Assembly: GCA_019308925.1 (NCBI GenBank)
Contig: JAFDHG010000011.1
Span: 1-42,014, forward strand
DNA from: Deltaproteobacteria bacterium
GTDB taxonomy: Bacteria > Desulfobacterota > B13-G15 > RBG-16-54-18
Length of the DNA stretch: 42,014 nucleotides
Direction of reading: 5' to 3'
In this document: positions 12,484-15,430 of the stretch, in pieces
Layout of the letters: the number at the start of each line of letters is the position of its first letter
Position numbering within the stretch: position 1 is the stretch's first letter
Notes under the pieces: model-generated
The model's input: only the letters and a program-made list of their open reading frames with translations
What the model was told of the DNA's origin: nothing
The model's database searches: none
Position numbers and translations under genes: made by a program

Positions 12484-12612
12484 CGTTCCCGAGGTTTTTA
12501 TTGGCATCTCTTAGCGCGGGCAATAAAAAGGCCCTTTTTGGGGCTTGATTAGCAGATATTTTGTGGAGGGATGGCTCTAATTTTCTAATTTCCTTGGTTA
12601 AACTTGGTTATT

Positions 12613-12766
12613 CCCTGTAGCTTGCTACAGGGTTACCTTATCTTTTCCTCCCCCTCGATGGGGGAGGGGAGGTGGGGGTGATTCTAGGTGTCTTTTTCTC
12701 ACCCTCCCCTTTATCCCCTCCCATCAAGGGAGGGGATAATAAGATACCCCGCAGCTTGCTGCGGGG
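12613..12766. repeat. Nested palindromic repeat cluster (MITE/REP-like)
   Basis: Four hairpins are arranged nearly symmetrically. Outer pair: CCCTGTAG-CTTG-CTACAGGG (12613-12632) and CCCCGCAG-CTTG-CTGCGGGG (12747-12766), sharing the CTTG loop. Inner pair: CTCCCCC-TCGA-TGGGGGAG near 12648-12666, and a CCCCTCCC/GGGAGGGG hairpin near 12716-12735. The inner flanks (GTGGGGGTGA versus TCACCCTCCCC) also pair with each other. The whole 154-base unit could fold as one cruciform-like structure. It abuts the outer end of the integron cassette, and no gene lies in it. Confidence 0.7.
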
Positions 12767-12777
12767 AGGTTCATTGA

Positions 12778-12850
12778 ACCTTACGACTAAGCTCACCTGC
12801 TGCTATGGAGCGCCAGCGGAATAGCGGTTGGGTGGAGCGCTTTGTTGGCC
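12778..12850 (-). other. attC (59-base element) of an integron cassette
   Basis: Read on the minus strand: R'' GGCCAAC (12850-12844); an L'' arm with AAGCGCTCCACC (12842-12831); a central structured part with GCTAT (12825-12821) pairing with ATAGC (12806-12802); an L' arm GGTGAGCTTAGTC (12797-12785); and R' GTAAGGT (12784-12778). L'' and L' are complementary apart from unpaired bases (AAGC..TC.ACC against GGTGAGCTT), as in attC hairpins with extrahelical bases. R'' is the exact complement of GTTGGCC at the other cassette end (14530-14524). The MTase stop TAG overlaps R''. R' deviates from GTTRRRY at its third base, suggesting decay or an end-of-array junction. Confidence 0.85.
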
Positions 12851-13776
12851 TATACTAATACTTTCCTGGCTGGTCGCACCTCATACAAAGCACGATCTTC
12901 ACATACTTGCAGTTGCCCCATAGGTTGTTTCTCAATCTTTTCGAATTTTAACTGAACATTGTTGAACAAGGTGCTCGCTTCCGCCTTAAGTTGACGAGCA
13001 GCCATTCTGCAATACTCAGGTTCAATTTCAACACCAATACTATTCCTACCACTCCTTATAGATGCTATCATTGTTGTTCCTGTTCCGCAAAATGGATCAA
13101 GCACGGTATCACCTACGAATGAGAACATTTTTACGATTCTTAGGGCCAGCTCAAGAGGAAATGGTGCGGGATGATTTCTGGTAGAAGCACCTGGTATATT
13201 CCATATTTGTTGAAACCAATTATTAAAGTCTTTTTTGTTAATTTTACTTAGTTCGCGCTGTTTATTAGTTGGTTTACGATATCCTCTAGGTTTTCGTTGC
13301 ATCAAAATAAATTCGATATCATTTTTTATTATTGCATTTGGTTCATATGGCTTTCCAAGAAATTTAGAGCCGTTAGCAACTTCATAATTAGCATTTGTTA
13401 TTTTGTGCCATATTATTGGATTCAAATTATCAAATCCTATTTTTCTGCAAATCACGCAAATATCTGCATGCAACGGAAAAACAAGATGGCGACCGAAAGA
13501 TCGCCTGGAGACACATACATCACCAACTACACATACTAAACGTCCGCCGGGTACCAACACACGATAGACTTCCTTCCATACCTTTTTTAATTCAGATAAG
13601 AATTCCTCATATTGATCAATATGGCCGAGTTGATCTGGGTTATCTTTATATTTTTTAAGATTCCAATATGGGGGAGAGGTAAGTACAAGGTGAACACTCT
13701 CATCCTCGATGAAAGACAAATCTCGTGCATCACCTTTGACCAATTTATGTACGGTTGGTATTTGTTCATTTGTCAT
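12850..13776 (-). CDS. Beta-class DNA methyltransferase (SPPYW type, probably N4-cytosine)
   Basis: 308 residues. Motif IV is TSPPYWNLKKY (SPPYW at residues 34-38) and comes before the AdoMet motif I, DPFCGTGTTMIAS (227-238), followed by IGVEIEPEY. This order is beta class, and SPPYW is usual for N4-cytosine enzymes, although adenine methylation cannot be ruled out. The region between (RKPRGYRKPTNKQRELSKINKKDF and neighbours) likely holds target recognition. The start overlaps the end of the endonuclease gene by 4 bases, and the stop lies in the attC. Its job is to protect the host at the sequence cut by the PaeR7I-like partner. Confidence 0.9.
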   Translation of the reverse strand: MTNEQIPTVHKLVKGDARDLSFIEDESVHLVLTSPPYWNLKKYKDNPDQLGHIDQYEEFLSELKKVWKEVYRVLVPGGRLVCVVGDVCVSRRSFGRHLVFPLHADICVICRKIGFDNLNPIIWHKITNANYEVANGSKFLGKPYEPNAIIKNDIEFILMQRKPRGYRKPTNKQRELSKINKKDFNNWFQQIWNIPGASTRNHPAPFPLELALRIVKMFSFVGDTVLDPFCGTGTTMIASIRSGRNSIGVEIEPEYCRMAARQLKAEASTLFNNVQLKFEKIEKQPMGQLQVCEDRALYEVRPARKVLV

Positions 13777-14495
13777 ATAAATGACCTCACATGGGAGCTT
13801 AGAGTTTTTGCAAAATTTTTAAAAGAAAGATCATCAGCAGGCTCTCTGTAAGTTCCATGTTCTCCCCGAGAACTATCTGAAACAATAAACGATGATGCGG
13901 TATAATGCCGTTCTAATACCAGTTTACGACAAAAAATCTCATATCTCTTCAAGTAAGAGGCACCAACAAATTCTGGAAAAACTTTGAAGTGAGGTTCTTT
14001 TACGCGAACAGGCCTATTGGAGGCTTCGCAATCTTCAAGCATGAAAAAATATCCAAGAAATGGTTGTCTGCCTCCGTTGAAGGCCCCCTCTCTAAAAGCA
14101 GTCCATAAATCCAGCGCACTCCCCATTGCCTCTTCAGTTCTATTGTTAAAATTGTTGCCAAATGAAGGTCCAACTTGAGATTTTGCCTCAATAGCAACAA
14201 CCAGACATCCATCCTTAATCACGAGCAAATCCCACTCCTTTGTTGGCCTAAAAAATCCTGGAAGTTCTATGTGTCGTTTGTAAAAAACATACTCTTCTTT
14301 GATACCAGATTCGACAATTAACCTGGTAAACAGATCAATGAAGCCGTCCATTTGTGCTCCACCAGTTACAGCACTTCTTAGTCCGGCATCATTGACACCC
14401 CTTTTTTTCTGTCTTTCTCGTTGCAGCCGTCGTGTACGCCAGTAATGCGCGACAGATTTGCTGATATATTTATCAATATTATCTATTATTGCCAT
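13773..14495 (-). CDS. PaeR7I/XhoI-type type II restriction endonuclease
   Basis: 240 residues resembling the PaeR7I family: N-terminal SKSVAHYWRTRRLQRE, SAVTGGAQMDGF, LPGFFRPTKEWDLLV, IEAKSQVGPSFGNNFNNRTEEA and GSALDLWTAF. A PD-(D/E)xK site is visible as Asp89 and Glu103-x-Lys105. Family members I know of cut CTCGAG, so that is the likely target; the assignment is by resemblance. The gene is 5' of and overlaps the methyltransferase gene by 4 bases. No controller (C) protein gene is present, so timing of expression may rest on the promoter in the attI-like region. Confidence 0.88.
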   Translation of the reverse strand: MAIIDNIDKYISKSVAHYWRTRRLQRERQKKRGVNDAGLRSAVTGGAQMDGFIDLFTRLIVESGIKEEYVFYKRHIELPGFFRPTKEWDLLVIKDGCLVVAIEAKSQVGPSFGNNFNNRTEEAMGSALDLWTAFREGAFNGGRQPFLGYFFMLEDCEASNRPVRVKEPHFKVFPEFVGASYLKRYEIFCRKLVLERHYTASSFIVSDSSRGEHGTYREPADDLSFKNFAKTLSSHVRSFI

Positions 14496-14523
14496 ATATA
14501 CCCTCTGATGATCGTATTTTTAA

Positions 14524-14686
14524 GGCCAACAATTAATATACGAAATTACCGTTTGCTCTGAACATGGGTATACTATACCATATGTTAAGCATGGTGGGGA
14601 GAGAAAATTCTTTAAAAATCAAGTTGGGGAGGGTATACTACGTCGTATTTTTCGGTAATATGGACTAAAAGCGAAATTCGTATAAT
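14524..14686. promoter_or_regulatory. attI-like recombination and promoter region between cassette and integrase
   Basis: The core site GTTGGCC on the minus strand (14530-14524) marks the attI/cassette junction. Beyond it lie repeated motifs: a 10-base direct repeat GGGTATACTA at 14566-14575 and 14631-14640, the first forming the palindrome GGTATA-C-TATACC (14567-14579), and an inverted pair ATTACCG (14545-14551) / CGGTAAT (14653-14659). TATAAT lies at 14681-14686, directly before the integrase ATG. I see no clear LexA box. These could be integrase-binding sites, promoter operators, or both; the sequence alone does not separate them. Confidence 0.55.
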
Positions 14687-15430
14687 ATGGGAAATCTGTC
14701 CAATAAAGCCAAAGTGACCCTGCCGGAGTTCCAGAAGTTTCTTCTGGAGCGGAAGCTTGTGCCGGCAAAGAACATGACGTTCTTTGCCTACTGGGTGAGC
14801 CGGTTTCTCGACTATGCCAGGAAACGTGACCTTTCTGCCACGGAATATCAGGAATCGGTGGTCATCGAATTTCTGGATGTCCTGCGGTCAGAAAAGCGCA
14901 TTCATGACTGGCAACCTCGTCAGGCTGATGATGCCATACGGCTCTATTATTTCCATTACCTCGGCAAAACAGGCAATCGGGCGTCGGACGGCGATATGCC
15001 TGCTGATGTTCTAGGAACGCTTCAGGAGATCAGGCGACTGATCAGGCTGAGGCATTATTCCTACAGCACGGAACGCACCTACCTGCAGTGGGTCGAACGT
15101 TTCCTGGCCTATGCGCTAAAGCCGGCATCCAAGCTGCCGGTGGACCCGCGAAGCGGAAAGATCGGTCGTCACCATATCAGCGAAAAGGCAATCCAGGTGG
15201 CAGTGAGAAACGCCGTGAACAAGGCCAGCATCGCAAAGCATGCGACGGTGCATACATTCCGCCACAGCTTTGCGACACATCTGCTCCAAAGCGGTGTCAA
15301 TATCAGGGAGGTACAGAGTCTCCTCGGGCACAAGAATGTTGAGACGACCATGACCTACACCCATGTCCTTCGCGATATGAAAAACGCGCCGCAGAGCCCG
15401 CTCGACGCCCTCTATGGGAAGCGGGAGTAA
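14687..15430 (+). pseudogene. Integron integrase (IntI-type tyrosine recombinase) with in-frame internal deletion
   Basis: 247 residues. Residues 1-100 are an extra N-terminal SAM-like domain; residues 113-142 (EIRRLIRLRHYSYSTERTYLQWVERF) match the usual IntI N-terminus. Then KPASKLPVDPRSGKIGRHH (145-163) matches the IntI1 region just before HTLRHSFA. About 200 residues that IntI1 has between these points are missing, including catalytic Arg I ('GTGxR') and the beta-strand Lys. His189-x-x-Arg192, His215 and Tyr224 remain. The IntI-specific 'DPRSG..RRHH' and C-terminal 'SPLDAL' identify it as an integron integrase rather than a phage Xer/Int. With Arg I gone it should be inactive. It is divergent from the cassette, as in integrons. 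Confidence 0.85.

Follow-up and report, generated by a model that had tools for sequence, protein, structure and literature searches.

Why does an intact restriction-modification (R-M) gene pair sit beside the remains of an integron integrase, and what brought it there? The window, a stretch of 42,014 nucleotides, forms contig C11 in a draft genome (G000) of 2.4 Mb and 120 contigs. A preliminary description saw the pair as a single complete integron cassette lying outside any long array, and supposed that a toxic addiction module might hold a dying integron in place. I consider it likely that this is indeed a real two-gene cassette of the PaeR7I/XhoI type, docked by recombination between attI and attC at an attI whose integrase is inactive. 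The same proposal, judged from sequence comparisons, takes this attI to be one of several dispersed copies, whose first cassettes were exchanged by means of an integrase encoded elsewhere. The unexpected element is the repeated attI docking site, not the R-M cassette itself.

The R-M cassette and its boundaries

The positions given in the preliminary description for the genes, the core site and the attC are all correct (Table 1). Moving away from intI along the minus strand, one meets the attI leader, G^TTGGCC, the endonuclease gene (R), the methyltransferase gene (M), a TAG running into GGCCAAC, and the remainder of the attC to 12778.

Table 1. Features of the cassette and its surroundings, in positions of the window
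Feature	Positions	Strand	Remarks
Integron integrase, truncated	14687-15430	+	In-frame internal deletion of 552 bases (184 aa), with CCGG microhomology at the joint
attI leader	14528-14690	-	Extended -10-like TGnTATAnT, could drive the cassette; repeated in genome and family
Junction of attI and cassette, core G^TTGGCC (5' edge of cassette)	14530-14524	-	From comparison of paralogous leaders
Endonuclease R	14495-13773	-	240 aa, XhoI/PaeR7I-family type II; PF04555 XhoI, E 1e-91
DNA methyltransferase M	13776-12850	-	308 aa; N6_N4_Mtase PF01555, E 2e-45
attC of R-M cassette	12850-12778	-	R'' GGCCAAC, L'' GCTCCACC, L' GGTGAGC, R' GTAAGGT (degenerate)

The two ends match as those of a closed circle should. 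The junction GTTGGCC and R'' (minus 12850-12844) are exact complements at 7 of 7 positions, and the TAG that ends M overlaps R'' by one base. L'' pairs with L', leaving one extrahelical base, which is the canonical geometry of an attC; in all three respects the earlier reading was accurate. The four attC elements are thus present with a single deviation, since R' is one base off GTTRRRY. The outer core is therefore degenerate, and re-excision of the cassette may be impaired. A palindromic CCCCTCCC...GGGAGGGG repeat (window 12600-12780) adjoins the outer end of the attC.

The hairpin anticipated in the preliminary description could not be judged by plain DNA folding. The recombining strand gives -10.0 kcal/mol, no different from shuffles (z 0.04), and the other strand -7.7. 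For this reason a covariance model (R2) was used, trained on ten other attCs from the phylum, contig C38 of the same genome supplying one, with the site in the window left out. Searched over the window, it scores minus 12850-12778 at 35.5 bits (E 5.5e-7), the next match having an E of 0.7, and so assigns one attC to the locus. The model shows covariation between L'' and L', which is partly circular because the training attCs were chosen by a scanner that requires L pairing. A home-made attC scanner was rejected as sole evidence: its scores for the window overlapped the background. When the junction was held fixed and the 4 kb downstream were shuffled by dinucleotides, an exact R'' together with an equally good L''/L' pair arose in 0 of 300 cases.

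Independent confirmation of the attI edge comes from a pair of paralogous leaders elsewhere in this genome, which are 84-91% identical as far as G^TT and unrelated beyond it, giving a sharp insertion edge. No clean empty site was found for the window locus: its transglutaminase and thiolase flanks lie on separate contigs in G003, and the upstream neighbor of the thiolase varies among genomes. On one of those contigs, G003:C100 (L135/L125), the position upstream of the thiolase holds an N-terminal fragment of what is apparently a third, shorter type of IntI, and then a DUF5677 cassette with an attC.

As for the genes themselves, a XhoI-family endonuclease linked to a methyltransferase, in frames that are both intact and overlap by 4 bases, makes a predicted type II R-M system, with CTCGAG as the putative recognition sequence. 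The G+C content of the cassette is 39%, that of neighboring genes 50-57%. Compared with relatives, pN is about 0.16 and pS exceeds 0.8, so that the differences are mainly synonymous and both frames, by this measure, are under purifying selection. From the low G+C and the mainly synonymous divergence, R and M look both functional and imported. PaeR7I relatives carried by plasmids share about 48% identity with R, while searches of the PDB sequences and of a phage collection with R gave no match. The predicted function of the pair is restriction of unmodified DNA, and it probably guards the cell against foreign DNA, phage included.

Does the pair travel as a cassette? A XhoI-family protein occurs in 22 of 395 genomes of the phylum, and eleven loci with R then M could be read on both sides. 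GTTGGCC precedes R by a few dozen bases in the window and in G025, G078, G103 and G217, and G137 has a variant core, GTTGGGC. G025 repeats the exact TAGGCCAAC overlap of stop and R'' found in the window, with a weak attC match ending on the core; in G217 M is followed by a strong attC (E 2.5e-8), and a weak one before R ends on the core. Some R-M homologues lack a cassette core. Set side by side and judged by eye, the flanks of the homologues showed no shared sequence continuing beyond the cassette boundaries. In a tree of the endonucleases, the copies that have a core belong to two subclades and to different families, a scatter to be expected of a mobile cassette. Because relatives in other families share the core, two of them with an attC, the pair is best regarded as a travelling cassette, and the view that it is a single complete cassette comes out strengthened. 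R-M cassettes are already a known kind, of which this is an additional member.

The claim that the cassette lies outside any long array stands for the window locus but not for the genome, which has at least six further attC candidates. Among them is a second two-gene R-M cassette, on contig C18 (L138, 122-1889), where a BglII-type endonuclease (PF09195) and an N6_N4_Mtase lie between two attCs. Defence is thus a repeated cargo here.

A repeated attI leader

BLAST with the leader found further copies in the same genome and in its family. Aligned, they end in a common consensus, GCAAACnGGAATTTCGTATATTAATTG^TT, preceded at about 40 bases by an extended -10-like TGnTATAAT. This promoter is a motif only, a sigma-70 scan being near chance level. 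Standing first behind the leader, the R-M cassette has only about 30 bases of upstream DNA of its own; with the promoter-like motif in that position, it is probably transcribed from the leader.

A model of the leader (R1), trained on 20 copies and finding those by construction, gives 24 attI sites that reach the junction (E <= 3e-4), in six of eight genomes of the family: three in the genome under study (C11, C7 and C38), 5 in G001, 3 in G002, 1 in G003, 4 in G004 and 8 in G006. Outside the family the same search turned up no convincing site, the best being at E 3e-5 in G018. Only 2 of the 24 have an intI attached, C11 itself and G004:C29. Near several of the sites no recognizable attC was seen.

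Could the cassettes simply have gone into non-classical attG sites dispersed over the genome, as in a CALIN, their resemblance to attI being incidental? Insertion at attG is itself established (Loot 2024, as cited in PMC11023631 and PMC12444791). The leaders, on the other hand, share 60-250 bp with the region upstream of intI, and several copies include intI codons, a likeness extending far beyond a core site. I find this explanation very improbable. The leader was also considered as a small transposon, whose far end would be fixed; this was rejected, as the edge on the intI side differs from one copy to another.

The repeated leader bears as well on the notion of addiction, under which loss of the R-M cassette would kill the cell and so keep the integron remnant in place. 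PaeR7I-type R-M has been treated as a system of post-segregational killing (PMC3031569), and the intact frames of R and M, with their signs of purifying selection, agree with it. But stubs of attI and cassette persist at C7 and C38 of the same genome without R-M, and R-M homologues occur without cassette cores too. An addiction effect of the pair in the window is possible; that it is what retains the remnant seems to me improbable.

Proposed cassette exchange and a possible source of integrase

Three loci are orthologous by their flanking genes, and in each the first cassette differs between genera: C38, G003:C55 and G006:C3; C7 and G004:C18, beside folE2; and G006:C74 and G002:C13, beside trx, where C25 of the genome under study and G004:C30 carry a type-B intI. 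At these loci the flank and leader align as far as G^TT, and divergent sequence follows.

Plain decay might account for this. By that reading several loci once held complete integrons, which exchanged cassettes for as long as their own intI worked; each then lost intI independently, and the R-M cassette was left frozen with no action in trans. The intI remnants at C11, C7 and C38 do differ in length (a few dozen codons are left at C7 and C38), the R' of the window attC is degenerate, and no intact IntI was seen in four genomes of the family, all of which plain decay would lead one to expect. Two cases fit it poorly. At G003:C55 and G006:C3 a terminator is fused to a shortened leader at apparently the same point, and the first cassettes are unlike; because the fusion point appears to be common, the change of cassettes there seems to be later than the loss of intI. 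At C29, C18 and C16 of G004 the leaders are diverged (about 82% alike mutually) and yet are followed by the same cassette head, identical at 61 of 61 bases, with two of the three sites lacking intI. The G004 contigs stop inside or just past this 61-base repeat. The simplest reading of the sequences is that one cassette was recently loaded into several G004 attI sites, two of them without integrase. Cassette differences at some loci could in part predate the loss of intI. Plain decay is to my mind possible but somewhat doubtful. Cassette turnover at intI-less sites suggests that such sites are not simply dying.

The cassette head of G004 recurs in G006:C74 as a 95% copy, whose R'' GCCCCATC complements the core, as judged by eye. 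At these four attI sites (L086 at G006:C74, and C29, C18 and C16 of G004) the cassette is apparently without an ORF; its core, G^ATGGGGC, is unusual, and it contains the inverted repeat TCACTGCCCA/TGGGCAGTGA.

Exchange at sites without intI would call for an integrase from elsewhere. That of the window is almost certainly inactive, because the 184 missing residues take in box I (YGCGLRL...RLR) and with it the catalytic arginine; along the longest stretch that aligns, it is 87% identical to that of G004:C29. The functional intI beside attI that marks a complete integron is therefore lacking at the window. A further integrase, this one full-length (412 aa) and of another type, is encoded at the end of contig C25; it has box I, HxxR and Y, and this I count in favor of exchange in trans. 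None that was intact was seen in G001, G002, G003 or G006 (MAGs 82-93% complete), so in those genomes the supposed trans integrase would have to have gone unseen, been lost or been present only for a time. This counts against the proposal, as do the R' off consensus, the attI sites with no recognizable attC nearby and the promoter known as a motif only. Three integrases (P0001, L042 and L046) have about 100 extra N-terminal residues compared with proteins of IntI1 length.

I propose, then, that an R-M lineage moves among the chromosomal integrons of one phylum as a cassette with the core GTTGGCC. In the window it would have docked through recombination of attI with attC, the local integrase being inactive now. 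Integron platforms at several loci would have lost intI and kept attI with its promoter, and these sites would have gone on swapping first cassettes by means of an integrase encoded elsewhere. The pair would be expressed from the leader promoter, probably against phage or foreign DNA. The sequence itself shows where the cassette ends, that R and M are unbroken and intI is not, that attI is dispersed and that orthologous sites hold unlike cassettes; expression, restriction activity and the action of an integrase in trans are inferred. Taken further, the sites may amount to a distributed integron: many promoter-bearing attI over the chromosome, most without intI, loaded in trans with varied cassettes, R-M among them. 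This last idea is tentative, falling short of what I would call probable.

Relation to known integrons

The integron as described has one intI beside one attI and one array. If the proposal is true, attI has multiplied and swaps cassettes without a local integrase, a different layout, in which several first-position, promoter-proximal slots could be expressed in parallel. Such a family would also let one gauge, in a natural setting, the frequency with which integrases work in trans on chromosomal attI, and the R-M cassette would exemplify defence genes travelling via such sites between families of one phylum. Annotation based on intI and attC would miss dispersed attI sites. Searching the literature for attI sites that are multiple or orphan yielded no match, weak evidence given its partial coverage.

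Papers in Science in 2025 reportedly describe defence systems in integrons. Restriction and methylation are among the common functions of cassettes, and chromosomal integrons carry R-M genes as the window does (PMC8618304). This one differs in being a two-gene PaeR7I/XhoI-type cassette, first at attI, adjoining a dead integrase and with relatives in several families of one phylum. PaeR7I itself belongs to the same endonuclease family; the plasmid copies were compared by sequence identity, while here the system is an integron cassette.

CALINs likewise hold cassettes where a functional intI is lacking, the usual threshold being two or more attCs; in Xanthomonas their positions are conserved between species, and mobilization in trans has been discussed (PMC12444791). 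Here, unlike in CALINs, several loci have each kept a copy of the attI leader, and orthologous sites differ in their first cassette. Cassettes at attG also occupy many genomic positions, but attG sites (Loot 2024, cited in PMC11023631) diverge from both attI and attC, whereas homologous attI leaders are found here. In cassettes of the deltaattI type (PMC12901181), attI recurs away from intI and inside arrays. Those belong to mobile resistance integrons of classes 1 and 2, while here the sites are chromosomal and the leaders reach about 230 bp.

The tandem attI of G001 and G006 look similar to the deltaattI arrangement. Four such pairs, 0.3-2.5 kb apart, are at G001:C3, G001:C65, G006:C7 and G006:C72 (L082, L083, L088 and L089), and at G001:C3 an apparent HicB-like ORF lies between the two leaders.
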